This document shows positions 7,846 to 40,692 of a stretch of DNA of 64,000 nt, in pieces. The stretch's first letter is position 1. Every line of letters begins with the position of its first letter. A model generated the notes under the pieces. It searched no databases, had not been told where the DNA came from, and saw nothing but the letters and a program-made list of their open reading frames with translations. Made by a program: the position numbers and the translations under genes. The DNA is taken from contig CAMPEQ010000011.1 in the NCBI GenBank assembly GCA_946803585.1, forward strand, positions 186,001 through 250,000, given 5' to 3'. Source of the DNA: an uncultured Actinomycetes bacterium. Lineage in GTDB: Bacteria; Actinomycetota; Actinomycetes; S36-B12; UBA10799.

Positions 7846-8310
7846 ATGGAATCACTCTTGAAGCAGGTGCGCGATCGCACGAGCAACTCAGGAAACCTCG
7901 ACGATCGTGAATACGGCTTCACGCTCATTGAGCTGCTGATCACGATCGTGATTCTCGGCATCCTCTCCACTGTTGTCATTCTCGGTGTCGCGAACTTCCG
8001 CACAGAAGCCGAGACGGCGACGGTTACTACAAACTGCACAACGTTCCAGCGCGGCAGCGCTGCCTACATGGTGGAACATCCAATGCCGACGGATCCAAAC
8101 GACATCCCAGCATGGGTACAGGGAATGCTTGATAGCGGCATCTACCAGTTCTCCGACGGGATGCAGGTGGAGTTCGTCAACGCCTTCAACGCGTGGGTTA
8201 CCGCAGGAGTTGGTGTGCCGCCAGGTACTCAAACTGTCTCAGACTGGGCCGAGCTCACCGCTACCCCAATAAACCTGATGTACGCAGGACAGGCCTACTG
8301 CGGCGGGTGA
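7846..8310 (+). CDS. Type IV prepilin-like protein
   Basis: 154 residues with a class III signal. After a 24-residue charged leader comes G followed by FTLIELLITIVILGILSTVV, with Phe+1 and Glu+5 after the predicted PilD cleavage site. The globular domain is short and has a Cys near the middle (NCTTF) and one at the C-terminus (AYCGG) that could pair. It should be inserted in the membrane, processed by prepilin peptidase and assembled into a pilus or pseudopilus. No assembly ATPase, platform or peptidase gene is nearby. Confidence 0.85.
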   Translation: MESLLKQVRDRTSNSGNLDDREYGFTLIELLITIVILGILSTVVILGVANFRTEAETATVTTNCTTFQRGSAAYMVEHPMPTDPNDIPAWVQGMLDSGIYQFSDGMQVEFVNAFNAWVTAGVGVPPGTQTVSDWAELTATPINLMYAGQAYCGG

Positions 8311-23800: not shown

Positions 23801-26800
23801 CGGTGACCGTCGAACCCGACACCGTGCACACACCCGTCGTTGCCGACGTGAACGTCACCGGCGAGGAGGACACTGTTGTCGCGGTCACATCACCAGTACC
23901 GGCCACCACAACCGCCGGGGCCTCACCAAAGACGATCGTCTGAACACCCTTACCCACCGAGAACGACTGGCTCGTTTGGGGTGCAGCGTTGTAGTCGTCG
24001 TTGGCAACCGAGTTGCCGTGCACGACACACGTGCCCGCAGCCACACCTGTCACGGTAGAACCCGCCACTGTGCAGACTTCCTCATCACCGGAGGTAAAGG
24101 TGACGGCCACGCCCGAGGTAGCGGTCGCGCTGATATCTCCTGTCGTGCCAACAGCCACAAACGGTGCCGTACCAAACGTGATCGATGGGGTTGCCTTAGC
24201 AATCGTGAACTCCTGAACCACCGGAGTCGCCGCCGCGTACGTCTCATCACCAGACTGGGTCGCCGTGATCGAACATGTCCCCGCGCCAACGAGCGTCACC
24301 GTTGTATCCACCACAGTGCAGTAGTCCGTCGTCGTGGAATCGAACCCAACTGTTCCGCCGGGGGCAGTAGCAACGAGAGTGATGTCCCCCGCGCCGAAGG
24401 TCGTGTCGGCAGGATCAGTAAACGAGATCGGATTGACCGCCTTGGCCAGCACAGCAGCCGAGGCATCCGAGGCCGGACCGACTCCAGAGTCGCTCGTGGC
24501 CGTGACTGTAAAGGTGTACTCAACGCCAGCCGTGAGCCCCTCAACCAAGCAGGTAGTCGTTAGCCCGTCATCAGTCGTGCACGTGGGGAGCGGATCGGGC
24601 AGGTCACCAGTCGTTGGGGTTCCCGTCACGGTGTAACTCGTGACCGGGTCACCGCCTGACGGAACGGGTGCGGCAGTCCAGGACACCGATACCGAATCGG
24701 CACCAGAAGTGCCCACCACCGCAGTCGGGGCGCCGGGAGTAGCAGCCTCGCCACCATCGGAAATATCCCAGCTGTCGTCGTCGACCAAGCTCGCCCGGTT
24801 CTGAGCCGGTGCGCCAACGCTGTAGGTCGAGGTCCCCGCATCAAACACGATGTCGCTACGAACAGCCTGACTGGACCAGCTTCGAAGTAGCGCGTCGTAG
24901 TTGGACGTCGATAGACCCGCACCATCGGCGAACATCCTCTCGGCGCCGTAGTCCGGACCATCATCGTCGTAGTCCAACGAAGTGACGACCCAACTGCTGA
25001 TGTCCTGATCAAAGGAGGTGGCACCGCTGAACATCGATTTCATTGTCGCAACGTTCGCAGTACTCCAGCCATTCTCTTGAGAGACAAGCGCCTGGTTGAA
25101 ATCCGAGGCATCGCGGAACATCTCGTCCATATTGGTGACATCGCCTGTGTCCCACGCCGAAATACTATGGTCGAAGTCCGTGGCACCCCTGAACATTCCT
25201 TCAGTACTGGAGACACCCTCAGTCGACCAGGACGAGATGTCTTGATCGAACGCGGCAGCGTCGTAGAACATGCTCTCCAGCGACTCCACGCTGCTAACGT
25301 CCCAACCACCCACGGTCGTAGGGAGCGGCTGATTGAATAATTCAGCACCCCGGAACATCGACGCCATCTGCGTCACCTGGTCGGTATCCCACGACGAAAT
25401 ATCCTGGTTGAATACGGCAGCGTCGTAGAACATGCCGCGCATATCGGTGACCGTGCTGGTATCCCAACCGTTCTCGGTCACCACGAGCGGCGAGTCAAAG
25501 GCCGCAGCGCCGGCGAACATATTCGACATGTCGGTGACACCAGTGGTATCCCAGCCAGAAATATCGCTATTGAAAGCGGTCGCGTCGTAGAACGCCCCCG
25601 ACAGGTTCGTGGTGCCACTGAGATCCGGGGCATCGATCGCGGTGAACTGCAGGTTCTCAGCTCCGTAGAAGTAGTAGCCGTCATCGACACCGAACATCAA
25701 CGGACCCCAGCTACTGATGTCCAAGAGCTTTGCCGCATCCCCAGATGGATCCATCTTCCAGCCGGTGATCGTCCCGGTGATCGTGATCTCGTAGACGCCC
25801 TGAGTGTTGTAGGTGTGCTCGCCCCCAGCTGCGTTGTTGACCGCCTGCAGGCCTGAGTCGTCACCCCAGTCGACAAGGAAGTCGTAGGTGTTCGCGGCAT
25901 CGTCGGCCAGCGGCAACCGGACGGTATCCGCGCCAGTGATTCCCGGGTTGTTGGTCTTCCATGTGGAAACGAACTCAGGGGCTGGTTCTGGCGTAGCGGT
26001 AACCGGTTCAGATGCCGGGCCGGTGCCTTCATCGTTGGTCGCCGTGACGCTGAAGGAGTATTCCGTGTTGTTGGTCAATCCCGTGACGGTACAGCTGAAG
26101 GCATCGCCGGCCGTGCCACACGTCTGAGCACCTGGGGACGCCGAGACCAGGTAAGCAGACACCGGGTCATCTTCGGGGGCATCTGCGGCATTCCATGTCA
26201 CGGTGACTTGTTCGTCACCAGCGACAACGGCGACATTCATTGCGGCGCCGGGTTCACCCGCGGACCCCGCATCGGTGATTGTCCAACTGTTCGGTGCATC
26301 GGTGAGGACCGCGCGCGCGGCAGCCGGAGCACCCAGGAAGTAGTGAGCATCGGAGGCCCCGAGCGTGATATTTGCCGGGATCGTTCCCTGTGCTGACCAC
26401 CCTTCAAGGAGCGCGCTGTAGTTCTCAGTCGACAGCGCTGAGCCATCGAACATTGAAACCGCGCCACCGTAGAGGAGGCCCTGATTTCCTTCTGCTGCGG
26501 GAACGAAGGATTGAATTGTCCACGACGACACGTCTTGGTCGAAGACCGTCGCCCCGGAGAACATTCGAGCCATATCGGTGACATCTGAGGTGTCCCACGC
26601 ACCCGGTGACGCAGGCCAGGTGGCACCACCGTTGTTGAACGTGGTGGCGTCCTGGAACATGCTGTTCATCTTCGTGGCAGAACCCGTGTCCAAACCGGAG
26701 ACGGTTCTATTGAACGCCGGAGCATCTCGGAACATCTCCGACATATCTTGGACCGCTGAGGTGTCCCAATTACTAACCGGCCGGTTGAACACAGTCGCGC

Positions 26801-29800
26801 CATAGAACATGCCCGCCATGCGCGTGACATTCGAAGTATTCCAGTTGCTGATCGGCTGATTGAACGCCTCAGCCCCGTAGAACATGAAGCCCATATTCGT
26901 TGCACTTGTTGTGTTCCAGCCAGCGATGTTGCCGTTGAAACTACTCGCGTCATAGAACATCGACCCCATGTCCTCAACGTTCGAGGTGTTCCACTCGCTC
27001 AGGTCCTGATTGAACTCGGTCGCACCGGCGAACATCTCAGACATCGTGGTCACGGCGGAGGTATTCCACCCGGAGAGGTCGCTATTGAATACCCCTTCCC
27101 CGTCGGAATAGAACATCGATTCCATATCGGTCACCGCGGACGTATCCCAGCCCGAGATATCACTATTGAAGACGTTGTCGTCTTCCATGTAGAACATCTC
27201 ACTCATCGACGTGACGCTGGAGGTATTCCAGGTGGAGATGTCTCCGGTGAAGGCATGGGCCTCAGCGAACGTGTTCGCCATATCCGTGACCGCCGACGTG
27301 TTCCAACTACTGAAATCCTGATTGATCAGACTGGCGTCCTCAAACATCGAGTCCATTGTGGTCACCGCGGAGGTGTTCCAGCCGCCTTCAGTCGTCGTCA
27401 GGGGCTGATTGAAGCTCTGGGCCCCCTTGAACATGTTTGACATGTCTGTGACCGCTGAGGTGTCCCACTCGGACAGACTGCTGTTGAAAGAACTGGCGTT
27501 TCTAAATGCGTTCTCCATGTTGGTGGTTCCGGAAAGATCGGGTGCATCAGTCGCGGGGACCGTCAAGTTGCTGGCGCCAGAGAAATAGCCACCGAGGTTG
27601 CCCAACTTCAGTGGACCCCAGCTATCGACAGTGAGAACCTTCTGAGCATCCCCGCCCCCGTTGAACCGCCAACCAGTAATCGTGCCCATGATCGTGACCG
27701 AATACGTACCCGCGGAAGCGTAGGTATGAGTGGCGATGCTGGGATCCAACGTGTAGCCAACAGTCGTGATGTTGGTGCTGGTTCCGTCGCCCCAGTGAGC
27801 AGTGAACGCGTACTCCGCCAGTGGGTCGTCTAGCTCAGCGACCAAGGGCAGCGTGATCTGGTCATCGTTGGATGCTCCGCTGTTGTTCGTCTTCCACGAA
27901 GACGTGAACGCGGCCTCTGCCGATACTGCGACAGACGGATCAGAGGTGGGCCCGACTCCTCGGGGATTCACGCCAGCAACAGTGAAGGTGTAGGACTGGC
28001 CGATCGTGAGACCCGTTGCCGTACACGACGTCGCGAGCTCCGCGAGAGTCGCACACGTTCCCTCTGCGACAGGTGAGTACTCCCCACCATCGGCCGAAAT
28101 CTGAACGTCATAGCCACTGACGGCAGCACCTGACTCGGGATTATTCTCCCAGTTGACCGTCAACTCACCGGATGCGGTGGGAACTGTGACCCCGATGGTT
28201 GGGGCAGCCAGATCGCTCAACGATCTCATCGTGTGGCCCTGGAACGCGGCCCCATCTGTCCAACCCGTCGCCCCCTCGGCGAAGTACCAATCAGCCGAAC
28301 CCGTGTTCGCGAAACAGGTGTTGATCTGACACTCGGGTTGGGCACCGTTGAAGATCACGTTCGTCATCGGCGCTGCGTTGATGAATCCGTTGAACTCGAT
28401 GGTCTGCAGACCTGTTCCGAACGTCACCGATGCCAAACTCGTCGTATCCTCGAAAGCGCGCGGATACATCCAGGTGATTCCGTCAGGAATATCAAGACTC
28501 GTGAGGCCAGTGCCCGCGAACACGTAGTTGTTGATCGCTGTCAGGCCAGAACCAATCGTCACCGATTCCAAACTCGCGGATCCGTGGAACCCGCTCGCCC
28601 CAATCGATGTGACCGTGTCCGGGATAGTGACACTGGTCAGACCTGAAGAACGGAACACTGACTCCCCGATGGTCGTGATCCCGGATCCGAACGTCACTGA
28701 CTCCAAACTCGAGGTCGACCCGAACGCCCAGCTTTCCAGCGTCGTGACACCGTCGGGAATCGTCACCGCCGTCAAACCCGAAGACCGAAACGCCGAGCTA
28801 CTAATCGAGGTAAGGCCAGCACCGAGAGTGACCGAGACCATATTCGAGGTTCCCTCAAACGCGCTAGACCCTAGAGAGGTCACCGAATCAGGAATCGTCA
28901 CACTCGTCACATCAGTAGCGCCGTTAAAGGCACCACTGCCGATCGTGGTCAGCGGGAACCCACCCGCTGTCGGGTAGATCGTGACCGCGCCCACGCAACC
29001 ACTGCCGTCAGTCACCGTTGCCACATCATCGGTGACAGTGAAGTCGTAGCACGCTGCCGGACCAACACTTAAAGTCTGCTCAACCTGCGCGGCCGGACCA
29101 AACCCAGCCACCGCCGCAGCATCAGCCCGAATCACACAATTATCCGTACCCGCAGCGACCCCAGTCACCACGCCAGTACTGGGATCAACCGTGCACGCAT
29201 CAGTGTCCGCAGACGAATACACCACCGCCGCACCTGGCGCATTCGACGTCGCCGACACCGTTCCGGAGACACCGACAAACACCGTGGGCGCCGAACCGAA
29301 CGTCAGTGTTTGCTCCCCAAGCGGGGACATTGCATGACCCTGGAACGTCGCATCCCAGGTAGCACCCGGAGCGTAGAACCACGCCTCAGATCCCGTATCG
29401 GAGAAGCAAGTGGACGCCTCACACGTACTCGGCTGGTTCCCAGCGAAGACGACATCCGTCATCGGGGCGCCGGAGAACGCCGCGTCCCCGACCGTGTCCA
29501 AACCGGTTCCAAACGCGACAGAAGCCAGACTCGCGTTGAAGGAGAAGGCCCCAGCACCGATCTCCGTTACGCCGTCTGGAATCGAGGCAGCCGCCAATCC
29601 AGCCCCGGCGAACGCCGAGGATCCGATCGTCGTCAGACCAGAACCAAACGTCACCGACGTCAAAGTCGGGATTGCCGAAAATGCGCTTGCACCTAAGGTC
29701 GTGACCGTATCTGGAATCGTGACACTCGTGAGCTTCGTTTGAGTGAACATACCGTCACTGATCTCGCTCAAACCAGAGCCGATCGTCACCGACTCCAAGT

Positions 29801-32800
29801 CACTACTTTCAAATGCGTACACACCCAACGTTGTGACGCTGTCCGGGATCGCGACACTGGTCAACCCCGAGTTATAGAAAGCGAAGCTCCCGATCGTTGT
29901 GACGCTGTCCGGGATGGTCACCCCGGTGAGCGTCGAGTTCTGGAAAGCGTTGTTCCCGATCGTGGTCAGTGGGTACCCGTCGGCTGTCGGGTAGATCGTG
30001 ACCACACCCGTGCACGTACCTTTACCTGACAGCGTCGCCACGTCATCGGCGACCGTAAAGGTGTAACAGAGTGCTGAAATACTGAACGTTTGCTCGACCT
30101 GCGTCGCCGGACCGTAGCCTTCGACCGCTGCCGAGTTCGCGCGAATGGTGCAGTTGTCCTCGCCCGCTTCCAAGCCCGTAACCACACCTGTACTGGAATC
30201 AACCGTGCACTGATCGGTATCCGCAGACGAATACACAACCGTCGCACCCGGGGCATTGGAGGTTGCCTCCACCGTCCCAGAGACACCCACTAGAACGATC
30301 GGCGCTGCCCCGAATGTCAACGTCTGCGACCCCAACTCCGACATCGCGTGACCCTGGAAAGTGGCCCCATCTGTCCAACCTGTCGCACCCTCAGCGAAGT
30401 ACCAACCAGTTGACCCCGTGTTCTCGAAACAGTTGTCCTGCTCACACGCGGGTTGGGCGCCGTTGAAGACGACGTCCGACATCGGCGACGCATCCTTGAA
30501 CGCGCGCGCCTCGATAGTTGTCAGGCCAGTGCCGAACCGCACAGTTGTTAATCCTTGACCTTTGAATGCGTCATTCTCGATCAGGGTGACGCTGTCAGGA
30601 ATCGTTAGGCTCGTGAGCGCGGTCGAGCCCGAAAACGCTGAAGATCCAATCGTTAAGAGGCCGCTGCCGAGGTTCACGGATGCCAAGCTGGTCGTATTTT
30701 GGAAAGCGTTAGCCTGGATATTTGTTACGCCATCAGGAATCGTGATGCTGGTCAGGGCACTGGCTCCACTGAATGCCGCGTTGCTAATCGACGTCAGTCC
30801 CGTACCAAGATCCACCGATGCCAGACTGCTCGTGTCTTTGAACGCCGAGGAACCCAGCGAGGTCACATTATTCGGAATGGTGATGCTGGTCAGGCCGCTG
30901 GTTCCGCTGAATACCGAGGAGTTAATCGAGGTCAGTCCCGTGCCAAGATCAACAGATTGCAAGTTGGTGGCGCCTAGGAACACCGCCGTTCCGGTCGAAG
31001 TGACGGAATCAGGAATAGTGATACTCGACAACGAACTCGAACGAAATGCGCTGGTCCCGATAGTGGTGAGACTCTCTGGAAGCTCCACTGTCGTGAGGCC
31101 AGTCGTATTTCTAAACGAAGCGCTGCCAATCGTAAGAACGCCCTCGGGGAGGCTTATTGACGTCACGTCAACCGCGCCATCGAACGCAGTGCTACCAATC
31201 GAGGTTACGGGGTCTCCACCAGCGGTTGGGTAGGTCGTGACCGCACCAGAACAACTTGTTCCGTCTTCAATAGTCGCGGTCCCGCCAGAGTTAGAATATG
31301 TGTAGCACCAGGCCGCAATACTGAAAGTTAGCGTGGCCTGCTCCGCTGCGGAGTACCCATCGACAGCGTCGGAGTTCGCCAGGATCGTGCAGTTGTCCGT
31401 CCCTGCGAGTCCACCGGTCACCACGCCGGTGCTGGCGTCAACAGTGCACTCATCAGTGTCCTGCGCGGAGTACACGACGTCGGCACCTTCAGCGTTCGAA
31501 GTCGCGGTGACTGTTCCGCTCTGCCCCACAACAAGACTGGGCGCAGCCCCAAACGTGAGCGTCTGTTGGGTGAGAGTTGTCGCATCGGTTGCCGGGGACG
31601 ATGCGGGGCTGTCTCCCTCATCGTTGGTTGCAGTCACGGTAAACGAGTAGGCGGTGGCACTCGTCAAACCCTCCACCGTGCAAGTGAACGTCACTTCGTC
31701 TGTCGCACAGAAGGCATCACCCGGCGAAGCGCTCGCGGTGTAGCCCGTCGTTGGGCTAAAACCTGCACCGGCCTCGTCCCAGGAAATAACAGCCGATTCC
31801 AGACCCGGCACCACCGTCACATTCGTCGGTGCATCTGGTGGGGAGATCTCAACCATCGTGTGACCCTGGTAGGTGGCTCCATCGACCCAGCCGCTGGCCC
31901 CGTTCGCAAAGAACCAATCAGCAGAGCCGGTACCGGAAAAGCAGCTCGTGGAGCACGTCGTCGGCTGGCTCCCGCTGAAGACAACATCCGTCATCGGCGT
32001 CGCATTCTGGAACGCTCTGACGCCAATCGAAGTCACACCACTTCCGAACGACACGCTCGCCAGACTGCCCGCTTCCTTGAATGCCTCCTGCTCGAGCGTC
32101 GTGACGCCATCGGGAAAGACAACACTGGTCAATCCAGTGCCGCGAAAAGCCCTAGTTCCGATCGATGTCAGCCCGCTACCGAACGTCACACTCGTCAGAC
32201 TGGCGACATACTCGAACGCTTCCTGCTCGATCGTTGTGACGCTATCTGGAAATACGACGCTCGTTATGCCGGCCGCGGAATCGAATGCGCGCAAGCCAAT
32301 GGAGGTGATTGGGGCCCCGCCAACCGTGGGAAAGATCGTGACTGCGCCGGTACACGAACCCTTGCCCGTTACCGTGGCGGCTCCGTCAGAGATGGAGTAG
32401 GCGTAACAAGCCGCCGCCACGCTGAAGGTCTGAGTGATCTGCGGCGCCGCGGCATACGCGCCAAAGGCGTCAGAGTTTGCGCGGATCGTGCAGTTATTCG
32501 TTCCCGAGGCTGCACCCGTCACGACGCCGGTTTCAGCGTCGACGGTGCACTGATCGGTATCGGCAGAGGAATAAACGATCGTTGCGTCTGGGGCATCCGA
32601 GGTTGCAGTTACCGTTCCGGTGCCTCCGTCGATGACGGTGGGGGCCGCACCGAACGTGAGCGTCTGCTCGGCGGGGGGATCGGGTTCAGCAGCTGTGATT
32701 GCACTTGCGGTGGCCATGCCGTCATCGGTCAGAGCAACCACCGTGAAGTCATACGATTGACTCGGAGTGAGCCCGGTGACGGCGGCCGGTGAGGAAGTTG

Positions 32801-33911
32801 CACCATCAACCGCGACGCCGTCTCGATAGACCTGATAGGTCACATCTCCGACACCTTCGGGCTGGGAGTCAGCGTCATCCCAGGCAACAGTGACCTGCTG
32901 GCTGCCTGGTGTTGTCGACGTAATCGTTGCTGCTTCGAGCGCGGTAATCGTCACCTGCCCCGTGCTACCTGTCGAACCGGTAGCGCCGTTTGCTCCGCCC
33001 GTTCCGGCACCGCTTGTTGCTGGGGCAAAGGTTCCATCTCCGATAGCGTTAGAGCTGACCTTGCTACCGCCTGCGCCCCCTCCACCACCACCTGCGTTGC
33101 CTGCATAGCCGCCCGCGCTGCCACCGCCGTAACCGGCGCCGCCGCCTCCACCGTTGCCGTTGTTAATCGCAGCGCCACCGCCGCTTCCGCCGCCTCCGCC
33201 AGCACCGTCTGCGTATGCGGACCCGGCCGCTCCGCCGAAGTTCACAGCTGCCCCACCAGCACCGGTAGCACCGCCCTTACCGCCCTTGGCGTTGGCTGAC
33301 CCCTGGGTTCCATTCCCCCCTGCGGCGCTATCTGACTGTCCAGATCCACCCGCGCCACCGACCGTACCGGCGGAGGTGGCACCGCCACCCCCACCGCCAC
33401 CGCCTCCCGCGATTATCTCGACGTCAGTTCCCATGACCCAAGTGGAGCCGCCGCCGCCTCCGGCCTTCTTCCCGCTCCCGTTGCCGCCGGAGCCACCGCT
33501 AGCACCACCGAGGCCACCCGAGCCCGAAGACCCTGCGCCGCCGACTCCCCCGAGGCCGATAGTGACCGTCAGGGTGTCGCCGACAACCACCGGCTGATAA
33601 GTCGTAACGACCGCAGCGTTCCCGCCCACACCACCGGCTTTGTTGTCGTTCTTCCCGCCACCGCCACCGCCACCGATCGCTTCGATCTTCACGACGGTGG
33701 GGCCGGCTGGAACGGTGTATGTGTCGTCGGAGTTGAGAACCACGGGGTTGACAACGGGTTCGGCCGCAGCTGGCGATGCCACCGGGACCGATGCGATCGA
33801 ACTCGCGACAACAGCGGTAACAACTGCGGCTACAAGTCCCCGACGACGGCGTGCATGGACTCGCCGCCCGGCGGCGGAACCAGTGGGCGCTAGCTGTCCA
33901 AAGAGTCTCAC
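17853..33911 (-). CDS. Giant secreted mosaic protein (~5350 aa): Gly-rich, FN3, BspA LRR, DUF285, Ig-like and pentapeptide repeats
   Basis: The GTG at 33911 is chosen because GGAG lies five bases before it; the frame opens at a TTG at 33989. Approximate layout: signal peptide 20-50 (basic run, hydrophobic core, ASPAAAE cleavage region); Gly-rich domain 75-318; FN3 323-408; four BspA-like LRR_5 blocks (498-684, 864-1191, 1279-1528, 1618-1899), each preceded by one Ig-like unit, with FN3 at 689-781; FN3 1901-1998; PKD-like plus twelve DUF285 repeats 1999-2541; FN3 2550-2643; PKD-like plus seven DUF285 repeats 2643-3048; FN3 3054-3153; 23 tandem Ig-like units of about 84 residues with paired Cys 3154-5078; pentapeptide repeats 5085-5276, rich in Lys; Pro/Gln-rich tail. 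No LPxTG, sorting helix or other C-terminal anchor is seen. Probably an adhesin or surface fibre. Confidence 0.9.
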   Translation of the reverse strand: MRLFGQLAPTGSAAGRRVHARRRRGLVAAVVTAVVASSIASVPVASPAAAEPVVNPVVLNSDDTYTVPAGPTVVKIEAIGGGGGGGKNDNKAGGVGGNAAVVTTYQPVVVGDTLTVTIGLGGVGGAGSSGSGGLGGASGGSGGNGSGKKAGGGGGSTWVMGTDVEIIAGGGGGGGGGATSAGTVGGAGGSGQSDSAAGGNGTQGSANAKGGKGGATGAGGAAVNFGGAAGSAYADGAGGGGGSGGGAAINNGNGGGGGAGYGGGSAGGYAGNAGGGGGGAGGSKVSSNAIGDGTFAPATSGAGTGGANGATGSTGSTGQVTITALEAATITSTTPGSQQVTVAWDDADSQPEGVGDVTYQVYRDGVAVDGATSSPAAVTGLTPSQSYDFTVVALTDDGMATASAITAAEPDPPAEQTLTFGAAPTVIDGGTGTVTATSDAPDATIVYSSADTDQCTVDAETGVVTGAASGTNNCTIRANSDAFGAYAAAPQITQTFSVAAACYAYSISDGAATVTGKGSCTGAVTIFPTVGGAPITSIGLRAFDSAAGITSVVFPDSVTTIEQEAFEYVASLTSVTFGSGLTSIGTRAFRGTGLTSVVFPDGVTTLEQEAFKEAGSLASVSFGSGVTSIGVRAFQNATPMTDVVFSGSQPTTCSTSCFSGTGSADWFFANGASGWVDGATYQGHTMVEISPPDAPTNVTVVPGLESAVISWDEAGAGFSPTTGYTASASPGDAFCATDEVTFTCTVEGLTSATAYSFTVTATNDEGDSPASSPATDATTLTQQTLTFGAAPSLVVGQSGTVTATSNAEGADVVYSAQDTDECTVDASTGVVTGGLAGTDNCTILANSDAVDGYSAAEQATLTFSIAAWCYTYSNSGGTATIEDGTSCSGAVTTYPTAGGDPVTSIGSTAFDGAVDVTSISLPEGVLTIGSASFRNTTGLTTVELPESLTTIGTSAFRSSSLSSITIPDSVTSTGTAVFLGATNLQSVDLGTGLTSINSSVFSGTSGLTSITIPNNVTSLGSSAFKDTSSLASVDLGTGLTSISNAAFSGASALTSITIPDGVTNIQANAFQNTTSLASVNLGSGLLTIGSSAFSGSTALTSLTIPDSVTLIENDAFKGQGLTTVRFGTGLTTIEARAFKDASPMSDVVFNGAQPACEQDNCFENTGSTGWYFAEGATGWTDGATFQGHAMSELGSQTLTFGAAPIVLVGVSGTVEATSNAPGATVVYSSADTDQCTVDSSTGVVTGLEAGEDNCTIRANSAAVEGYGPATQVEQTFSISALCYTFTVADDVATLSGKGTCTGVVTIYPTADGYPLTTIGNNAFQNSTLTGVTIPDSVTTIGSFAFYNSGLTSVAIPDSVTTLGVYAFESSDLESVTIGSGLSEISDGMFTQTKLTSVTIPDTVTTLGASAFSAIPTLTSVTFGSGLTTIGSSAFAGAGLAAASIPDGVTEIGAGAFSFNASLASVAFGTGLDTVGDAAFSGAPMTDVVFAGNQPSTCEASTCFSDTGSEAWFYAPGATWDATFQGHAMSPLGEQTLTFGSAPTVFVGVSGTVSATSNAPGAAVVYSSADTDACTVDPSTGVVTGVAAGTDNCVIRADAAAVAGFGPAAQVEQTLSVGPAACYDFTVTDDVATVTDGSGCVGAVTIYPTAGGFPLTTIGSGAFNGATDVTSVTIPDSVTSLGSSAFEGTSNMVSVTLGAGLTSISSSAFRSSGLTAVTIPDGVTTLESWAFGSTSSLESVTFGSGITTIGESVFRSSGLTSVTIPDTVTSIGASGFHGSASLESVTIGSGLTAINNYVFAGTGLTSLDIPDGITWMYPRAFEDTTSLASVTFGTGLQTIEFNGFINAAPMTNVIFNGAQPECQINTCFANTGSADWYFAEGATGWTDGAAFQGHTMRSLSDLAAPTIGVTVPTASGELTVNWENNPESGAAVSGYDVQISADGGEYSPVAEGTCATLAELATSCTATGLTIGQSYTFTVAGVNPRGVGPTSDPSVAVSAEAAFTSSWKTNNSGASNDDQITLPLVAELDDPLAEYAFTAHWGDGTSTNITTVGYTLDPSIATHTYASAGTYSVTIMGTITGWRFNGGGDAQKVLTVDSWGPLKLGNLGGYFSGASNLTVPATDAPDLSGTTNMENAFRNASSFNSSLSEWDTSAVTDMSNMFKGAQSFNQPLTTTEGGWNTSAVTTMDSMFEDASLINQDFSSWNTSAVTDMANTFAEAHAFTGDISTWNTSSVTSMSEMFYMEDDNVFNSDISGWDTSAVTDMESMFYSDGEGVFNSDLSGWNTSAVTTMSEMFAGATEFNQDLSEWNTSNVEDMGSMFYDASSFNGNIAGWNTTSATNMGFMFYGAEAFNQPISNWNTSNVTRMAGMFYGATVFNRPVSNWDTSAVQDMSEMFRDAPAFNRTVSGLDTGSATKMNSMFQDATTFNNGGATWPASPGAWDTSDVTDMARMFSGATVFDQDVSSWTIQSFVPAAEGNQGLLYGGAVSMFDGSALSTENYSALLEGWSAQGTIPANITLGASDAHYFLGAPAAARAVLTDAPNSWTITDAGSAGEPGAAMNVAVVAGDEQVTVTWNAADAPEDDPVSAYLVSASPGAQTCGTAGDAFSCTVTGLTNNTEYSFSVTATNDEGTGPASEPVTATPEPAPEFVSTWKTNNPGITGADTVRLPLADDAANTYDFLVDWGDDSGLQAVNNAAGGEHTYNTQGVYEITITGTITGWKMDPSGDAAKLLDISSWGPLMFGVDDGYYFYGAENLQFTAIDAPDLSGTTNLSGAFYDATAFNSDISGWDTTGVTDMSNMFAGAAAFDSPLVVTENGWDTSTVTDMRGMFYDAAVFNQDISSWDTDQVTQMASMFRGAELFNQPLPTTVGGWDVSSVESLESMFYDAAAFDQDISSWSTEGVSSTEGMFRGATDFDHSISAWDTGDVTNMDEMFRDASDFNQALVSQENGWSTANVATMKSMFSGATSFDQDISSWVVTSLDYDDDGPDYGAERMFADGAGLSTSNYDALLRSWSSQAVRSDIVFDAGTSTYSVGAPAQNRASLVDDDSWDISDGGEAATPGAPTAVVGTSGADSVSVSWTAAPVPSGGDPVTSYTVTGTPTTGDLPDPLPTCTTDDGLTTTCLVEGLTAGVEYTFTVTATSDSGVGPASDASAAVLAKAVNPISFTDPADTTFGAGDITLVATAPGGTVGFDSTTTDYCTVVDTTVTLVGAGTCSITATQSGDETYAAATPVVQEFTIAKATPSITFGTAPFVAVGTTGDISATATSGVAVTFTSGDEEVCTVAGSTVTGVAAGTCVVHGNSVANDDYNAAPQTSQSFSVGKGVQTIVFGEAPAVVVAGTGDVTATTVSSSPVTFTSATTGVCTVSGSTVTGVTAGECVIRGNAVADANYTAAAQVEQSLTVGKGAQVVAFTSVAPGDAVAGGATYTPTTSGGASTSPVVVTVDDAATSVCSITDGVVSFVTSGDCVLNANQAADANYEAAPQVQQTVTVADGANPISFTQPDDTTFGAGDVTLVATAPGGPVTFTSNDEAVCTVSGDTVSLTGAGTCSITANQAGSSGFPAADPVTKTFTVAKAANPISFTDPADTTFGAGDVTLVATAPGGEVVFASTTVGNCTVAGSTVALLGAGLCSINATQAGGDDYVEATPVDQSFDIAKAAATISFESAPFVAVGATGDVAASASSGETVVFSSTTEAVCTVDGETVTGVTAGTCVISGSAPEGANYLAAGPTTQSFAVGKGVQTIVFGEAPAVVVAGTGDVSATTVSTSEVTFTSQTTDVCTISGATVTGVTAGTCVIRGNAVADANYNAAAPAEQSITLGKGAQTVAFTSGAPVDAVVDGAEYSPAASGGASTAPVVITVDDASAAVCSMTDGVVSFATAGDCVLNANQAGDANYEAAPQVQQSVTVGKGAQAITITSAAPTGALVGGPTYSPTGTGGASGNPVVFTVAFGTIDQCSITGGVVSFLAAGTCTLHANQAGDDNYDAAPEVEQSFDVADGVNPIDFTQPADTTYGAGDVTLVATAPGGPVTFSSDDDAVCTVSGDAVTLVGAGTCSITAAQAGSPGYPPATPVTKTFAVAQAANPIDFTDPADTTFGAGDVTLVASAPGGTVGFTSTTLDACTVSSDVVTLAGAGTCSITATQAGDADYVEATPVTKTFAIAKAAASITFDSAPFVAVGATGDVSATATSGETVVFTSNTEAVCTVAGGTVTGATAGTCVISGSAPEGADYLAAGPTTQSFAVGKGTQTITFGEAPAIAVNGSGDVSATTDSSSPVTFTSITTDVCTISGATVSAVAAGDCVIRANAVADANYTAAAQAEQSFGIAKAEQAVTFTSDAPVAPIVGGDTYTPTASGGASTSPVVVSVDDAATAVCTVTDGVVSFVATGDCILNANQAGDANYNPAPQVQQSFTVEQGLNPITFEQPSDSTFGAGDVTLSATAPGGTVTFTSNETDVCTVDESTVTLVGAGTCSITANQAGTDSFPAADPVTKSFEIAKADQVIAFTSSAPTAAVVAGPEYGPTADGGASTSDVVISVDGDSAAVCAIADGAVSFSAVGDCVLNANQTGDANYNAAPQVQQSFAVGAGANPIDFTQPADTTFGAAAVTLTATAPGGVVTFTSNDTAVCTVADATVSLVGAGTCSIQADQAGNANYVAATPVTRSFEIAKADQTIDFTQPDALAVSATQELSATATSGATVTFSTDTPGVCSVEGTTMTGVASGDCVVYADQAGNDDYNAAPQVDRTVGVGQGAQTITFDQPGALAVDAEEDLVASASSGLDVVFTTDTTDVCTVSGTTLTGVAAGQCVVHADQPGDRDWLAADQVDRSVAVGQGSQTISFPAPTSIAVATSDDLVATATSGLAVTFSTDDTDICTISGTTVTGVSAGACLIKANQAGDADWQAAPEVTQALAVGQGTQTIDFTAPSAMAVGATQSLVATATSGLSVTFATSTPSICSVTGTTLTGLAAGSCSVQADQIGNEDWRAAPQVLDTVAIGKTDQTITFVAPAEYSQYEGTLALTATASSGLPVAYTSTTPSVCTITGTTANLNAVGTCTIVASQPGDVNFRAAPDVARSISLFAMPEPLVELCPSGSCAWENLAGVNLAGEDLAGINFTGANLSRSNLVGANLRGAKLNKADLTGANLKSANLRNVTVKKATIRSASFIGANMRGVKFVNTDGGKKADFNSAVLKKAVFKKGNISRASFTGAKLQKTVFKNITLQRAVFYRANLKKSLFKNANARGATFTEANLTKATFNSVKLNGASFARAKRKNTRFINSPTAGLAARVLSSVPQPQPEQEPQVSVPPAQTTPGVPNTPVAPNVPEVAPSAGPPKQNDEQDSTGAQADSADSGAFRPAAS
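18680..24450 (-). repeat. Array of 23 Ig-like coding repeats
   Basis: Twenty-three adjacent units of about 250 bp encode domains of the form QTIxF...VxFTS...CTVxGxTVTGVxAGxCxI...NYxAAxxVxQSF. Units fall into subtypes that recur in order (see findings). DNA near 22630-22740 and 23880-23985 is nearly identical, showing recent duplication or conversion. Confidence 0.88.
24770..27560 (-). repeat. Two blocks of DUF285 (BspA 25-residue) repeats
   Basis: Units of about 75 bp encode W(D/N)TSxVTDMSxMFxxAxxFNQ(D/P)(I/L)S. I count twelve in the block at about 27500-26520 and seven at about 25580-24970, each preceded by a PKD-like domain with the HTYxxxGxYxxTI pattern, and separated by an FN3 domain. 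Confidence 0.88.
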
Positions 33912-34062
33912 TAGGTCTCCAACTTCGAGGGGTCCTGGTTCGGGCAACACCGCGGCGTCAAGCGCGCCAAAGTGCGATAGGTAACCCAATCCTCTAGCGC
34001 CCTGGACACCTAGTCTTGCCGAGCGAGAACCGTCACCCGTTTGCTCGCGCTTCGACCAAAGT

Positions 34063-34236: not shown

Positions 34237-36738
34237 CTAGATCGCGTTGGGTCGACGTGACAGCCAGACAGTAAGACCGATCAAGACGATGAGCAGCAGG
34301 CCAGCAAAGCCAGCAACTACGCCAACCGAGACTGGTGTGTTACCCGGCGAAGCCACCGTGAATGCGTATGTCGCTGAGGTCGTTGCATCTGCTCCGGTCG
34401 CGGTCCCGTAGGGGAAGGCCACACCCGAGTGAAATTTCTTATCGATCGCGTTATTGACTGCAACCGTCTTACTCGCCGACGTGGTCATCGTGGATGCAAG
34501 ACCTGCGAGATCCTTCACCTCGTCGGTGATCGCTCCGAACGGACCGTTCGCCAGCTCGTTAATCACTCCGGGGAGATCATCGATCGCTTTCTCCAGGGGC
34601 AGCGCACCCCGACCTACGTCGTTGGCGATTGCATAGATGCGATGCAATGGCTCCTGCAGTTCGCGCACGATCGTGTCTACTCCGGCGCGAACAGCCTTGG
34701 CGGAAGCCTCGTCAGCGGCCGCCGCAATCGTCATCGCCTGTAGCAATCCGCAGTTCGAGATGTTTGAGATAACCGCCGGCGAGCAATCGTGATCGAGCGC
34801 ATAGTTGAGTTCTGGCATCTTTGCGAGCAACTTAGTCAGTGACTTCTCCGCAAACTTGATACCGTCTTCGACATCTTCGAGCAGTGGTAATAGGCCAGCT
34901 ATATCCGCTGAGATCTCAGATAGGTCGCCGATCAGCGTCGGAGTCACAGCCACGATGCCGTTTGCAGCCGCTGTACAGGCATTCACGTCCCACGAGTTGT
35001 CGTCCTTCTGCGCGATCAAAAGATCCTTGAGTTTCTGCAAATCCGCCGGGTCACTTACCTTGCCAAGCGCATCGTCAAGAGCTGGCTCGATCTTCGCCGC
35101 CCAGTTTGCGTCTAGGTACGTTCGCGTTGCATCACCGGCGGTACACGTCCCCGGCAGCATTCCAACGATCTGTTCCTCAATCAAGGACGCTCCGGTACAT
35201 GGCTTCGTCTCACAAACCAGCTTGTCGGGGGACTTCAACTCATTCTCTAGGCCCGGAATCACTGTCTTGTTGAGCTCATCAACTAGTTGAGTAGCGGTGG
35301 CAATACCCTGATCGAGGGCTGTCTCCGCGTCTCCAAGCTGGGAGATCATTTTGGCCAGCGCCTTCTGGCTCGCTGGAGACGTGGCATCCGCGACATAGCC
35401 AGCCGCCGTCGCGGTCGCAGACTCGGTGAGGCCATTTAGCATGAACAGGTAGTCGCTAGCCTGTTCCAACTGATCAACCGCCGCAGCGACCTTCTGATCA
35501 GCCTCATCCGGGTTAATCGAGATCTTTGCGGCCATCTCGAGTGCCGGATTCACTTTGTCAGCTAGGAACGCAGACAGCTGCGCGGAAGCAGTCCCCAAAC
35601 CATCCTGCAGCTTTACAAGAAGCGGGACTCCCTTGCCGCTCAGGAGGTCATCAACTGTGGCGCCAATCTCAGCACCCTTGGAATAGAGCGCACTCGTAGC
35701 GTTCGTCGAGTCCTTCGGCGTTGCTTTGATCTTCATTTCTGGCAGTTGCGCGTTGTCTGCTGTGCCAGTCAGCTTGGCAACGACTGTGGAACCTGTGAGC
35801 TGCACTGAACCAGACACGACTTGGCCGACCGCGAAGCCGGTATTCGCCCACGGCGCCTCCACGTTCGCCCAGCCACTTCCGAACGTCCCGGTCAGTCCAA
35901 CCCCGAACGGGATAGAGATGTCTGCGGATTCAGTGACTGTGGCGCCGCCTGGGCCACGGTATGAGATTTGCTGAGCTGAAGTCGTGTGGTTCGTAAAGGT
36001 CCACTCGACCTCGATATTGCCGGTAAGGGTCTTCGCGTCATTCGGGTCAATAACGACCCCATCCTGAGTGATGCTTGTAGAGACGGTAATCGGCATATCG
36101 CCGCCATACTGTCCCATCGACGCAAGCAGGTTTTGAACCTCAGGCATCTGGTTGTCGACGTCGTAAATGATCTCATCGTTGTCAACCTGTAGTGGCGCAA
36201 AAGAGGTGACGTCTCGGGGCTTATTGGGACCGACCGGAACATTGACCGTGCCATTCCCATCACCGGAGACGTTAGTACTGACGTAGAACGCGTTCTGTTG
36301 GATCTCTCCGGAGGCATCCGTGTTGATCGTCAGACTCTTCCCGACGTTTACGTTGAGATCCGTCCCGGTGTATGGCGTGTCATCGGCCGGTTTGGGCGCG
36401 ATGTCTGGGGTGCTGATAGGCGGAATCGCCACCGAAGGAAGCCCCGTTGGCAGGTCCGTCGGGAGGCCGCCCGTCGGCAGGCTTGGGACAGTTGGCAATG
36501 AGTTGGTCGGCGTGGGAAGCGGCAACTCAGAAATCGTCACGCCAGGGGCGGGGGTGATCTCGTCCGCTGCCGCTGGGGCAACTGGAGATACGACGCCAAG
36601 GCTCGCTCCGGCCACGACTGTCAAGACGGACAAAGCACAGATCCCGCTGGCGACCTTAACCGTCCGCGTTGACGTCGAATCTAGCTCGCGTCGACGTAGT
36701 CCGAATCTACGCGTCATTTTTGATGTCCACTTCTTCAT
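34237..36738 (-). CDS. Large secreted membrane-anchored protein, module copy 2
   Basis: 833 residues, family not recognised. A long basic n-region precedes a signal peptide helix (about 27-55), then a Pro/Thr-rich spacer (62-112), a beta-rich domain (about 125-320, with GDMPITVS and SIPFGVGLTGTFGSGW), a long amphipathic helical region (about 340-790, six or more Cys including NCGLLQ) and one C-terminal helix (about 802-826) followed by SRRPNAI, giving a type I topology. It is a paralogue of the 787-residue protein at 37381-39744: same order of domains, and shared GDMPIxVS and NCGxxQ motifs. The start overlaps the stop of the small membrane protein upstream as ATGA. Confidence 0.82.
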   Translation of the reverse strand: MKKWTSKMTRRFGLRRRELDSTSTRTVKVASGICALSVLTVVAGASLGVVSPVAPAAADEITPAPGVTISELPLPTPTNSLPTVPSLPTGGLPTDLPTGLPSVAIPPISTPDIAPKPADDTPYTGTDLNVNVGKSLTINTDASGEIQQNAFYVSTNVSGDGNGTVNVPVGPNKPRDVTSFAPLQVDNDEIIYDVDNQMPEVQNLLASMGQYGGDMPITVSTSITQDGVVIDPNDAKTLTGNIEVEWTFTNHTTSAQQISYRGPGGATVTESADISIPFGVGLTGTFGSGWANVEAPWANTGFAVGQVVSGSVQLTGSTVVAKLTGTADNAQLPEMKIKATPKDSTNATSALYSKGAEIGATVDDLLSGKGVPLLVKLQDGLGTASAQLSAFLADKVNPALEMAAKISINPDEADQKVAAAVDQLEQASDYLFMLNGLTESATATAAGYVADATSPASQKALAKMISQLGDAETALDQGIATATQLVDELNKTVIPGLENELKSPDKLVCETKPCTGASLIEEQIVGMLPGTCTAGDATRTYLDANWAAKIEPALDDALGKVSDPADLQKLKDLLIAQKDDNSWDVNACTAAANGIVAVTPTLIGDLSEISADIAGLLPLLEDVEDGIKFAEKSLTKLLAKMPELNYALDHDCSPAVISNISNCGLLQAMTIAAAADEASAKAVRAGVDTIVRELQEPLHRIYAIANDVGRGALPLEKAIDDLPGVINELANGPFGAITDEVKDLAGLASTMTTSASKTVAVNNAIDKKFHSGVAFPYGTATGADATTSATYAFTVASPGNTPVSVGVVAGFAGLLLIVLIGLTVWLSRRPNAI

Positions 36739-37349
36739 CGGGATCCTCCGATGATCTCGTCAAGCGAAGTAACTGGTGTCTGATCAACGGGTGACTCGTC
36801 GTCTTTAGGTGTGGATGCCGTGGTGACAGGCACCGGCGTCCCCCCAGCTAGACCGGTCTCATCCGGGAAGCGCTGTGCCGGCAGGACAGCCAGGAATCCG
36901 ATCATGCCCATCGCCAGCTGGGTGAGCGCGGCAGTCGGAAAGAGTTCGACCGCTGAAAACGGATTAGCCGCAAGCGCGGGGTAGACCCCGGCCGACATCG
37001 CTAGGACGCCGAGCAACATTGACCAGGCTTGAATACGACGAGCGGTCAGGCCATGGATTAGTCCCACGACAACGAGCACGACGATGAGCGAGATTCCCAC
37101 CCCGACCGTGTTCGTGCCGCCTGGTAGCACGCCAAGTTGCATTGCTACCAGGACTGTCCCAAGCACCATACCGATGAGGAAACCCGCGAGGCGCTGTATC
37201 GGTGTACCAATCCGCACGATCGCGGCAATAACTCCGGTGCCCACCCCGAAAATCGTATTCTGCGCACTCATCCCGAGTTGCTCAGAAATCAGGAGCCCAA
37301 CAGCGCCGATCACCATTGCGAACAGTCCAATGATCATGGTTCGCTTCAT
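36735..37349 (-). CDS. Polytopic membrane protein, module copy 2
   Basis: 204 residues with about six membrane helices and a hydrophilic C-terminal tail of about 40 residues. Related to the 219-residue protein at 39741-40400 (shared stretch around R-x-AGFLIGMVLG versus R-x-GAFLIGLAFG, same helix spacing, same tail type). Its stop overlaps the start of the large anchored protein by 4 bp, and it begins 31 bp after the end of the first large protein. Function unknown; tight coupling implies the two products work together in the membrane. Confidence 0.8.
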   Translation of the reverse strand: MKRTMIIGLFAMVIGAVGLLISEQLGMSAQNTIFGVGTGVIAAIVRIGTPIQRLAGFLIGMVLGTVLVAMQLGVLPGGTNTVGVGISLIVVLVVVGLIHGLTARRIQAWSMLLGVLAMSAGVYPALAANPFSAVELFPTAALTQLAMGMIGFLAVLPAQRFPDETGLAGGTPVPVTTASTPKDDESPVDQTPVTSLDEIIGGSR

Positions 37350-37380
37350 CGTTGTCTCCCTACTATCACGCAGTTCTCGT

Positions 37381-39744
37381 TCACGGGCTGATCCTCCTGC
37401 GGAATAGGTACGTCCCGAGTCCGAGCGCTAGCAACAGGAAGACAACAGCGATCCCAATGCTTGTCCCCCAACTGCGCGCATAGGGCTTGGCTTCTTCTTG
37501 AGTGATCTGGTAGGTCGCGAAGTTGCTTATCTTTCCGTCAGTTCCCGCTGCCAGCGTGGAGTTGCCATACGGTGCTCCGTCCCCGGCAAGGCCCCTGTTG
37601 TTCATCGCAATCAAGGAGGCTTGGATTGATCCCACGAGGTCACTGATCTGGATCAGGGCGTCCTTACCCTTTGCGTCCAGGCCAAGCGTTATGCCGTCAA
37701 CCTTAGTCTCGATGAGGTCGCCCAACCCCGGGATCGCGTCAGCGGCATTTCCGACTGTGTCAGTGAGCTGCATTGCCTTCTTGAACGACGTATTGATCGT
37801 CGGAAGGTACGCCGAGAGCCCCTTGAGGCTCTTAGCCGCCTTGGTCGAGAGCTTCCCCAGCGTATAGTCGACGTCACCAAAGAACTCGAGGACTTGAACC
37901 ACTCCACAATTGGCCAGGATTGATCGCAGGAGTGCCTCAATATGCGGCTCGAGATTGGCGATACCGTACTGCTTAATAGCTGCTTGAATCGGGTCAATGA
38001 TCTGCGCGTTCGTGCACTTGTTGTTCAGGAGCGTCGTTAGTTGATCAACCGCTACGAGTGCCTCCTGGACAACTTGCGCGGCCTGGGTATCGGCGAATGT
38101 CGCGAACTCGGCTAACGCGGTCGCGGCCGGTCCGATGTAATCCTGGATCGGCTCGAGTTGTTGCACCAGAGGATCCATAATGCCACCTGTGACCGTGCAA
38201 GCCGCTGAAGCGCCAAGGAACTTCAGGTCTGCAGGCATCTGATTGCGGAACGTCCAGAGCTTGTTCTGGTAGGCCTTGAGACTCTGAGCTTGCAGCTCCT
38301 TCTGGAGCGCCTGGAGATTCGTTTTGCTCGCTCCGCTGACCTTCGCGATGGCGCCCTTCAGTGCTGCCGCGCCATCACTCAGGGGCGGATTTGGCGGCAG
38401 GATACTGAGATTCTGGCCGCCGAAGTAGGTCGCGGTGGCACCGACGGTGTTACACATCGACGCGATCTCATTTACATCTGCCTCAACTTGGGTGATGTTG
38501 ATCGACTGGAGGATCTTGTCCAAGCTTGAAAGTGAGTCAGATGCTTCTTGGGCATCTGGCCCAACGCTCTCGATAACTTGGCCAAGCCACTCGATCGTCT
38601 CGGGAACGTTCTTGCCGATGTAGTCCGAGATCTGCAAGATGACTCCAGCGATCTCCCCTTGAGCCACGGCATCGCCCTCAAGTTGGCGGCCGAGTTGCTT
38701 AAGCCCCTTCACGATCTCGTTGACGCCACTCCGTACAAACTTGGGGTTGTACTCCAGCTTCTTGATATCAGCTACTAGCGGATCAATGTAATCAGAATCG
38801 AGCTTGCGGAAGCCCGAGGTGTAGCCGCTAATGATGTGCGTTGCAAGAAGCACCTCGTCGACGGTCTCTCCGAGTAGGCCGGCTGCTGGCTCGACGATTT
38901 TTTCCTCGGCTTCCGGCGCGAGGGTGAGAAGCGATCCGTCCTGGTACTGCTCAAGGTTGATCGGGACGACGGTATGTGTTCCGCTCGGTAGGTTCGCTCC
39001 TTGAGCCCTCGCCTTGATCGTAACTGACTGCGTCGTTCCCCCCATAACTCCCTGAAGAACCGGAAAGAGAATCAGAGTTCCCGCAACGACAGTTCCGTCA
39101 CCGGTGGTCTTCGATGTTGCCGTTCCAGTGTCGACCACGTCCCAGCCATCCCCGAAAGTGGCGACGAACGAGTCACCGAACGGGACGGGGATGTCCATCT
39201 CTTTACTCTTGGTGTTGCCGTAGACATCCTTAAATGTCACGCTCTGCATCCGCGAGGTGTTGTTCGTCGCGGTGTAGGTGATCTCGACGTCGCCGTTTAG
39301 GTCATAGCCATCATTAGCATCGATAGCCTCGCCATTCACCTTGACCTCGGTGGAGACGCTGATTGGCATGTCCCCTTGGTAGGTTCCTCCGAACTTAAAG
39401 AAGCTGCTGACCTCACCTGACGCGCTACTCACGCTCTGCGTTTGGGTGGCGTTATCCGGGCCTGTCGCAACGGTGACATCTCCGGAACCGGATCCGGAAA
39501 CCTGACCGTTTACTAGGTACAGATTCAACGGGGTCGTATTTCCCGCCTGATCAGTCGTAACCGCGACGGTCTCTCCGACCGTGACATTTAGACCGGAACT
39601 CGACGAGCTAGCGCCGGTCAAGGCAGGCGGCGCAGCAGAGACGGATGCGTCGACTGCAGTTGATGTTGCAACCACTCCCACCACCACTGCGGTGGCTGTG
39701 AGAGCTCGAAGCGTCTTTCGTCGGGGAGTCATTCGTTTTCTCAT
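37381..39744 (-). CDS. Large secreted membrane-anchored protein, module copy 1
   Basis: 787 residues, family not recognised. Signal peptide (about 10-38), beta-rich domain (about 48-260: LNVTVGETVAVTTDQAG, GDMPISVS, PVPFGDSFVATFGDGW), long helical region (about 270-740, with Cys in MCNTVG, AACTVTGG, NNKCTNAQ and NCGVVQ) and one C-terminal helix (about 760-780) ending FRRRISP. Paralogous to the copy 2 protein, but without its Pro/Thr-rich spacer. The helical region somewhat recalls YhgE/Pip-type or other extracellular coiled assemblies, but those have several membrane helices, so I make no assignment. The start overlaps the upstream small protein stop as ATGA. Confidence 0.82.
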   Translation of the reverse strand: MRKRMTPRRKTLRALTATAVVVGVVATSTAVDASVSAAPPALTGASSSSSGLNVTVGETVAVTTDQAGNTTPLNLYLVNGQVSGSGSGDVTVATGPDNATQTQSVSSASGEVSSFFKFGGTYQGDMPISVSTEVKVNGEAIDANDGYDLNGDVEITYTATNNTSRMQSVTFKDVYGNTKSKEMDIPVPFGDSFVATFGDGWDVVDTGTATSKTTGDGTVVAGTLILFPVLQGVMGGTTQSVTIKARAQGANLPSGTHTVVPINLEQYQDGSLLTLAPEAEEKIVEPAAGLLGETVDEVLLATHIISGYTSGFRKLDSDYIDPLVADIKKLEYNPKFVRSGVNEIVKGLKQLGRQLEGDAVAQGEIAGVILQISDYIGKNVPETIEWLGQVIESVGPDAQEASDSLSSLDKILQSINITQVEADVNEIASMCNTVGATATYFGGQNLSILPPNPPLSDGAAALKGAIAKVSGASKTNLQALQKELQAQSLKAYQNKLWTFRNQMPADLKFLGASAACTVTGGIMDPLVQQLEPIQDYIGPAATALAEFATFADTQAAQVVQEALVAVDQLTTLLNNKCTNAQIIDPIQAAIKQYGIANLEPHIEALLRSILANCGVVQVLEFFGDVDYTLGKLSTKAAKSLKGLSAYLPTINTSFKKAMQLTDTVGNAADAIPGLGDLIETKVDGITLGLDAKGKDALIQISDLVGSIQASLIAMNNRGLAGDGAPYGNSTLAAGTDGKISNFATYQITQEEAKPYARSWGTSIGIAVVFLLLALGLGTYLFRRRISP

Positions 39745-40400
39745 TCCGATTTTCCTACCGTTGACGCTTCGTTGGATGAAGCGGTGGAAGAGGCAAGCGG
39801 TTGTGCGGCTGGATCGTCTCCTACTGTTCCTGAGCTAGCGCCAGCTGGCGAGGTCTTGTTCTCCCCTGCATCCTCCAGCAGTTCCACCAGAATCGTCACG
39901 AGGAATCCTCCGCTCGAGGCCGCGATCGTCACGAGCAACACCGTCGGATACTGGGTAAAAACGAACCACGGGCTAGAAATAAGCAACGGCTGATAGATGG
40001 CAGCTAGCGTGCCGCCGCCAAGGATCATTGCCCAGAGCGGCAGTCGTCCCTTTGTCAGCGCGGAGATAACCGTCAGGACCAAGATTCCACCCACCCAGCC
40101 AGCCCAACCGACCATCCCGAGTACAAGGGCAAAGAGACCGAAGGCTAGTCCGATGAGGAATGCCCCGTAGCGGGCAAGCGGCGAGCGGTCCCTGGCCAAT
40201 CCGAGCACCACTCCAGCCATGACGCCAATCAGCGCGTTGGCAGTCCCCAGCTCGAACACGGTCGTCAGATACCAAACACCCAGCGCAAGGATCAAGAGCA
40301 GCAGCCCGAACAGCAGGTCCTTCGATCGCACTTTATTCCCCAGACTTCCAAGAAACTCGATTGGCTCAGTTTGCCGAGCCTGGCGTGCATCTTGGTTCAA
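39741..40400 (-). CDS. Polytopic membrane protein, module copy 1
   Basis: 219 residues. A cytoplasmic N-terminus (about 28 residues) is followed by about six membrane helices and a Ser/Ala/Glu-rich C-terminal tail of about 45 residues. First gene of the four-gene set; related to the 204-residue protein of copy 2. A perfect 18-bp palindrome lies about 55 bp upstream of its ATG and may be its operator. Function unknown. Confidence 0.8.
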   Translation of the reverse strand: MNQDARQARQTEPIEFLGSLGNKVRSKDLLFGLLLLILALGVWYLTTVFELGTANALIGVMAGVVLGLARDRSPLARYGAFLIGLAFGLFALVLGMVGWAGWVGGILVLTVISALTKGRLPLWAMILGGGTLAAIYQPLLISSPWFVFTQYPTVLLVTIAASSGGFLVTILVELLEDAGENKTSPAGASSGTVGDDPAAQPLASSTASSNEASTVGKSE

Positions 40401-40453: not shown

Positions 40454-40471
40454 GATCGGATCGATCCGATC
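40454..40471. promoter_or_regulatory. Perfect 18-bp palindrome, candidate operator
   Basis: GATCGGATCGATCCGATC is identical to its reverse complement. It lies inside a wider inverted repeat, AGCGATC (40451-40457) and GATCGCT (40476-40482). It is upstream of the first gene of the duplicated membrane module and downstream of the tRNA-Tyr terminator, the position expected of a dimeric repressor site. Confidence 0.45.
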
Positions 40472-40536: not shown

Positions 40537-40583
40537 GGCAAAACGGCCTGGGGCGCTGCTGCAATCACAGACGCTCCCAGGCC
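40537..40583 (-). terminator. Intrinsic terminator of tRNA-Tyr
   Basis: On the minus strand a GGCCTGGG/CCCAGGCC stem, extended by GCG/CGC with a one-base bulge, is followed by GTTTTG. It lies 29 bases after the tRNA-Tyr 3' end and separates that gene from the membrane module. Confidence 0.7.
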
Positions 40584-40611
40584 GGGTGGCAGAGCAAGAA
40601 CATCTGCCTTG

Positions 40612-40692
40612 TGGCGGGTGAAGGATTCGAACCTTCGAAGCTTTCGCGACGGATTTACAGTCCGCTCCCATTGGCCGCTCGGGCAACCCGCC
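40612..40692 (-). tRNA. tRNA-Tyr(GTA)
   Basis: A class II tRNA of 81 bases on the minus strand. The acceptor GGCGGGT pairs with ACCCGCC, the anticodon loop CTGTAAA carries GTA, there is a long variable arm, and the T loop reads GGTTCGAATCC. No CCA is encoded. Divergent from the YajQ gene. Confidence 0.96.

Follow-up and report, generated by a model that had tools for sequence, protein, structure and literature searches.

A tandemly duplicated gene pair for a six-helix membrane protein and a large anchored secreted protein in actinobacteria, and its sequence link to MMPL-type exporters

This work describes two tandem gene pairs, each coding for a small polytopic membrane protein and a large secreted protein with a C-terminal anchor, on a 64,000-nt stretch of DNA (hereafter the window) from an uncultured actinobacterium. 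Because relatives of both proteins are fused to, or directly beside, MMPL pumps, we propose that each pair is rather likely to be an undescribed accessory unit of MMPL-type exporters (RND superfamily), with the free pairs serving a pump whose gene lies elsewhere in the genome. To our knowledge, the passage of MMPL cargo beyond the membrane and the accessory needs of these pumps in Gram-positive actinobacteria are being worked out mainly for mycobacteria.

Results

Gene layout of the double pair

The two small-polytopic/large-anchored gene pairs lie in tandem on the minus strand, from 40,400 to 34,237, and the features of the region, in window positions, are as follows.

40611-40692, minus strand: tRNA-Tyr, upstream of pair 1
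40544..40584, minus strand: stem-loop CGGCCTGGG/CCCAGGCCG, then TTTT on the minus strand, downstream of tRNA-Tyr
40454..40471, no strand: perfect 18-bp palindrome (9+9 bp) GATCGGATC/GATCCGATC, upstream of pair 1
40400-39741, minus strand: small 1 ORF in its longest form, TTG start at 40400
39741..40331, minus strand: small polytopic protein 1, about 196 aa, 5-6 TM; family profile E 3.2e-52 at 39795-40322
37381..39744, minus strand: large secreted protein 1, 787 aa; signal peptide, C-terminal TM, RRR tail
36735..37349, minus strand: small polytopic protein 2, 204 aa, 6 TM; family profile E 1.1e-52
34237..36738, minus strand: large secreted protein 2, 833 aa; domain order as in large 1
17853-33989, minus strand: giant ORF, 5378 aa, repetitive surface protein gene, 247 bp downstream of the pairs

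The first-pass annotation had described two pairs in one orientation with ATGA overlaps and a 31-bp spacing, and all four open reading frames were recovered in that arrangement, with a 4-bp ATGA overlap at both small-large junctions and a gap of 31 bp from pair 1 to pair 2. The small 1 gene probably starts at GTG 40331 (196 aa) rather than at TTG 40400, because the family N-terminus M(A/K)RTFLxGL aligns to VRSKDLLFGL and because the family profile match begins at 40322. Both large proteins begin with a segment resembling a signal peptide and end in a single TM segment and basic residues, as had been claimed when they were called secreted proteins with a single C-terminal anchor. In large 1 a beta-rich N domain (about residues 50-262) is followed by a long helical region (about 290-720) and the TM segment (763-781), and in large 2 a Pro-rich linker precedes the beta domain. 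The homology suspected from common motifs was borne out for both kinds of protein, the large ones being 25% identical over their length (E 4e-31) and the small ones 29% (E 1e-12), with GDMPIxVS, NCGxxQ and FLIG present in both copies.

Upstream of the pairs, the palindrome that had been remarked on before proved to be perfect and is a possible operator, and the stem-loop at 40544-40584 is likely a terminator dividing the tRNA gene from the pair operon. No sigma-70 consensus promoter was found, and the terminator-like matches of the terminator scan were no better than those in shuffled sequence. By eye, the giant ORF has a start rich in glycine and, at its C-terminus, pentapeptide-like repeats; it further shows leucine-rich repeats of the BspA kind, 'WDTSAVTDMSxMF' repeats, segments resembling Fn3 and numerous short repeats of beta type. 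Elsewhere in the window, a type IV prepilin-like protein (GFTLIELLITIVILGIL) is encoded at 7846-8310 on the plus strand.

The small protein is linked to the six-helix tail of MMPL pumps

In four loci (L039, L049, L051 and L053, the first belonging to the window genome itself) an MMPL gene overlaps or abuts a large-protein gene, and a fifth such MMPL precedes a large-protein gene in L101. These five proteins extend beyond the MMPL core by a tail of about 220 aa with six hydrophobic segments, and the PF03176 scan, which covered all but that of L101, matched at E ≤ 3.4e-69. Aligned by hhalign, the small family and the MMPL tails matched with Prob 93.9 and E 1.5e-7, and with more small sequences with Prob 95.9, E 5.2e-9 and a score of 63. 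In the controls, unrelated multi-TM segments scored no more than 20, shuffled columns 18.8 and the reversed profile 27.6; the rows of the control list with higher scores belonged to the family or were the tails. When the 297 genomes were searched with a profile built from the tails only, it hit stand-alone small genes in eight of them (E 2e-5 to 7e-4), at coordinates found independently by a separate small-protein search. On these profile comparisons, the small protein is a homologue of the C-terminal 6-TM tail of some MMPL/RND pumps. The distant-class small proteins gave no direct match to the MMPL tails.

In the class sample the tailed pumps occur only in the order of the window, and therefore the fusion may be a local event. 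In the midpoint-rooted tree, the large proteins that go with tailed MMPLs fall into a single clade (support 100/100) nested within the pair-type large proteins. None of the four window proteins matched MMPL (PF03176) at E ≤ 10, no MMPL gene adjoins the window pairs, and, as judged from sequence, the pair itself is not a pump; the pumps are found among its linked relatives only.

Plain MMPL genes beside large-protein genes

Five loci of other classes (L158, L159, L161, L163 and L167) have a plain MMPL gene immediately upstream of a large-protein gene; none of these large genes was part of the profile by which they were found. The C-terminal TM segment and its basic residues occur where the partner of the large protein is a small protein or a tailed MMPL (in L090 and L149 the segment falls below the hydropathy threshold and is visible by eye) and are absent from all five large proteins with a plain MMPL. 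This pattern would fit a docking of the large-protein helix on the 6-TM domain; since the large proteins compared are kin by descent, the correlation is suggestive only. MMPLs are encoded in all 28 genomes tested, a weak and non-discriminating support because MMPLs are near universal. It speaks against the accessory reading that no MMPL gene adjoins the window pairs and that in the window genome the pairs (five) outnumber the untailed MMPLs (three).

Two further loci were observed. In L153 (671-7307), an MMPL-like gene (1213 aa), an ATGA-overlapping gene for a 224-aa 5-TM protein and a large-family gene follow each other; the match of the 5-TM protein to the small family vanished once this protein was removed from the profile, the earlier match having been circular, and it therefore counts as positional only. 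In L166 (4256-10590, genome G376), large-family and MMPL matches are adjacent and divergent, at a second locus in addition to the small-large pair of that genome.

Family searches and predicted fold

The four proteins had been assigned to an unknown family, and this holds in so far as direct searches of Pfam, NCBIfam and PDB sequences with the window proteins gave nothing significant; it does not hold for the small protein, which is related to DUF1097 as well as to the MMPL tail. Distant small proteins (L157 twice, L160 and L162) pass DUF1097 (PF06496) with 46.2, 43.4, 35.4 and 25.8 bits (best E 7.1e-12; gathering cut-off 24.6 bits), and profile comparison joins the distant-class small proteins to the window small family at E 5.9e-10, with the reversed control at background. 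The window small proteins gave no direct match to DUF1097; by profile relationship they are its remote relatives and not members by the cut-off. In the small family the near-invariant columns hold Gly, Pro, Arg and Trp, with no invariant acidic residue such as a proton relay needs. The small-family profile had no significant match in the PDB, and the large-family profile met generic coiled coils only.

AlphaFold models were poor (pLDDT 48 and 40 with three input sequences). A fold search with the low-confidence large model returned beta-sandwich matches for residues 119-265 with Z of about 8, which is the noise level, and therefore the predicted N domain of the large protein is called only beta-sandwich-like.

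The earlier statement that no described system has this composition stood in one respect, as a literature search by title and abstract found no paper describing the pair and no description of a large secreted partner for DUF1097; it was not borne out in another, as large-protein genes were repeatedly met immediately after MMPL genes.

Conservation and duplication of the pair

Among 297 genomes of the class, the large match adjoins the small one by coordinates in 23 of the 23 genomes with a strong small-protein match (E below 1e-20), which answers the co-occurrence check proposed in the first-pass annotation. Three genomes gave a strong match for the large but not for the small protein: in G027 and G039 MMPL-tail matches take the place of the small protein, and G164 has neither. 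Each of the five small genes of the window genome (G000, 2.71 Mb) adjoins a large gene; the remaining large gene of this genome, the sixth, adjoins an MMPL gene. The small-large order recurs in other classes of the phylum, the ATGA overlap is mostly kept in pair-bearing relatives, and in genomes that by their size look Micromonospora-like and Nocardioides-like the pair is flanked by polA and rpsA, as identified from sequence, and no pump lies there. Among named genome contigs, only the MAG contig CAUJEJ010000168.1 gave a match; no relatives of the small protein were found in viral contigs.

That the pair was duplicated as a unit, as had been suggested, agrees with the congruent trees of the two families and with the correlation of their distance matrices (mirror-tree r 0.84, reached in none of 20000 permutations). 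In both trees, window pair 1 clusters with the G001 pair and the upstream pair of G024 (support 96/98 in the small tree and 100/100 in the large tree); window pair 2 falls together with G028 and the downstream pair of G024 (100/100 in each tree). The double tandem pair is present in G024 and G028 too, and in the congener G001 the pairs lie near nuo genes, as in the window. From these groupings, the tandem duplication is older than the split of two taxonomic families. The two tandem pairs are thus ancient paralogues, and they probably serve different pumps or cargo.

A very divergent pair with long branches in both trees was seen in the window genome (contig C10, L040:5970-8767), and it is possibly under a different constraint. 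Large-family-like proteins without a small or MMPL neighbour were noticed in L099 and L100, apparently, by eye, beside ABC-transporter-like genes.

Discussion

Based on the findings in this work, a model of the accessory unit can be drawn. The large protein would be exported, so that its beta-sandwich-like domain and coiled-coil stalk lie on the outer side of the membrane; its one C-terminal helix may dock on the small 6-TM protein, which would be the stand-alone version of the 6-TM tail following the 12-TM MMPL core and would thus serve as a membrane dock, not a motor. The complex could then take cargo from, or stabilise, an MMPL pump encoded elsewhere, and the cargo, most likely a lipid or another hydrophobic envelope molecule, would be passed through the cell wall. 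More broadly, and tentatively, these proteins might constitute a widespread two-component envelope machine of actinobacteria, in which a 6-TM dock and a beta/coiled-coil stalk work alone or are plugged into different MMPL pumps.

The main rival of the accessory reading holds that the free pairs are pump-independent and form a membrane-anchored envelope stalk or tether with a structural, sensing or passive lipid-bridging role, the MMPLs of one order having recruited dock and stalk by fusion. Most pairs do have no pump gene nearby, the polA-rpsA synteny is conserved while pump-free, and the tailed pump is a nested clade limited to one order, but the plain MMPL genes neighbouring large genes in several other classes make the MMPL link wide and recurrent, and we regard a pump-free stalk as somewhat improbable.

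Two other explanations fare worse. The large protein could be of the YhgE/Pip type (a phage receptor, or EsaA-like in type VII secretion), with the polytopic part split off as the small protein. The TIGR03057 xxxLxxG heptad repeat is associated with YhgE, and it scores above 18.6 bits in L038, L039, L049, L051, L053 and L153, so that several large-protein relatives bear it, and a few weak matches of the helical region fall on YhgE-like proteins. These weak matches are confined to that region, however, the window proteins stay below the 18.6-bit cut-off and match neither the N- nor the C-terminal Pip/YhgE model even at E ≤ 10, and the kinship of the small protein lies with DUF1097, which leaves this origin very unlikely. 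Hardly to be credited at all is the initial proposal that the module could serve to export or display the giant surface protein of 5378 aa. The giant gene and the pairs share a strand and are 247 bp apart, with no terminator-like match on the minus strand between them, but the small protein has no motor features, no giant gene was seen beside single pairs in the gene tables inspected, and the gene following the double pairs of G024 and G028 is not a giant; the giant gene is therefore excluded from the module.

In the tentative, broader picture of a two-component machine, dock and stalk might form an adaptor-like conduit for monoderm actinobacteria, analogous to the Gram-negative tripartite RND systems. 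A dock-plus-stalk pair that some lineages have fused or adjacent to MMPLs, and others free and duplicated, provides named genes, and the accessory reading points to a role for proteins without a known function, the DUF1097 relatives among them.

Comparison with known systems

Several known families approach parts of the pair. DUF1097 does so through the distant small proteins of the same gene pair, which pass its gathering cut-off, whereas the window small proteins do not match it directly. The YhgE/Pip and TIGR03057 proteins share with the large protein a long extracytoplasmic helical region, and with some of its relatives the repeats, but the large protein has a single C-terminal helix in the place of a polytopic C-terminal domain.

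The nearest working analogy is the mycobacterial MmpS5-MmpL5 system (PMC12501195), an MMPL/RND pump assisted by an accessory protein that is anchored and Ig-like and by a coiled-coil tube that forms an extracytoplasmic conduit. The role of the pair could be comparable to that of MmpS together with the MmpL5 coiled coil. In contrast to that system, the large protein unites beta domain, coiled coil and C-terminal anchor in one separate chain, an extra 6-TM dock is present, and the window pairs have no linked pump; the window proteins have no MmpS match in Pfam, and the stable anchor is C-terminal and not an N-terminal TM segment. From the periplasmic adaptor (membrane fusion) proteins of the tripartite RND systems, the large protein differs in its C-terminal anchoring and in having no sequence match to the adaptor families, while by analogy it may resemble them in combining a beta domain with a coiled coil beside an RND pump.
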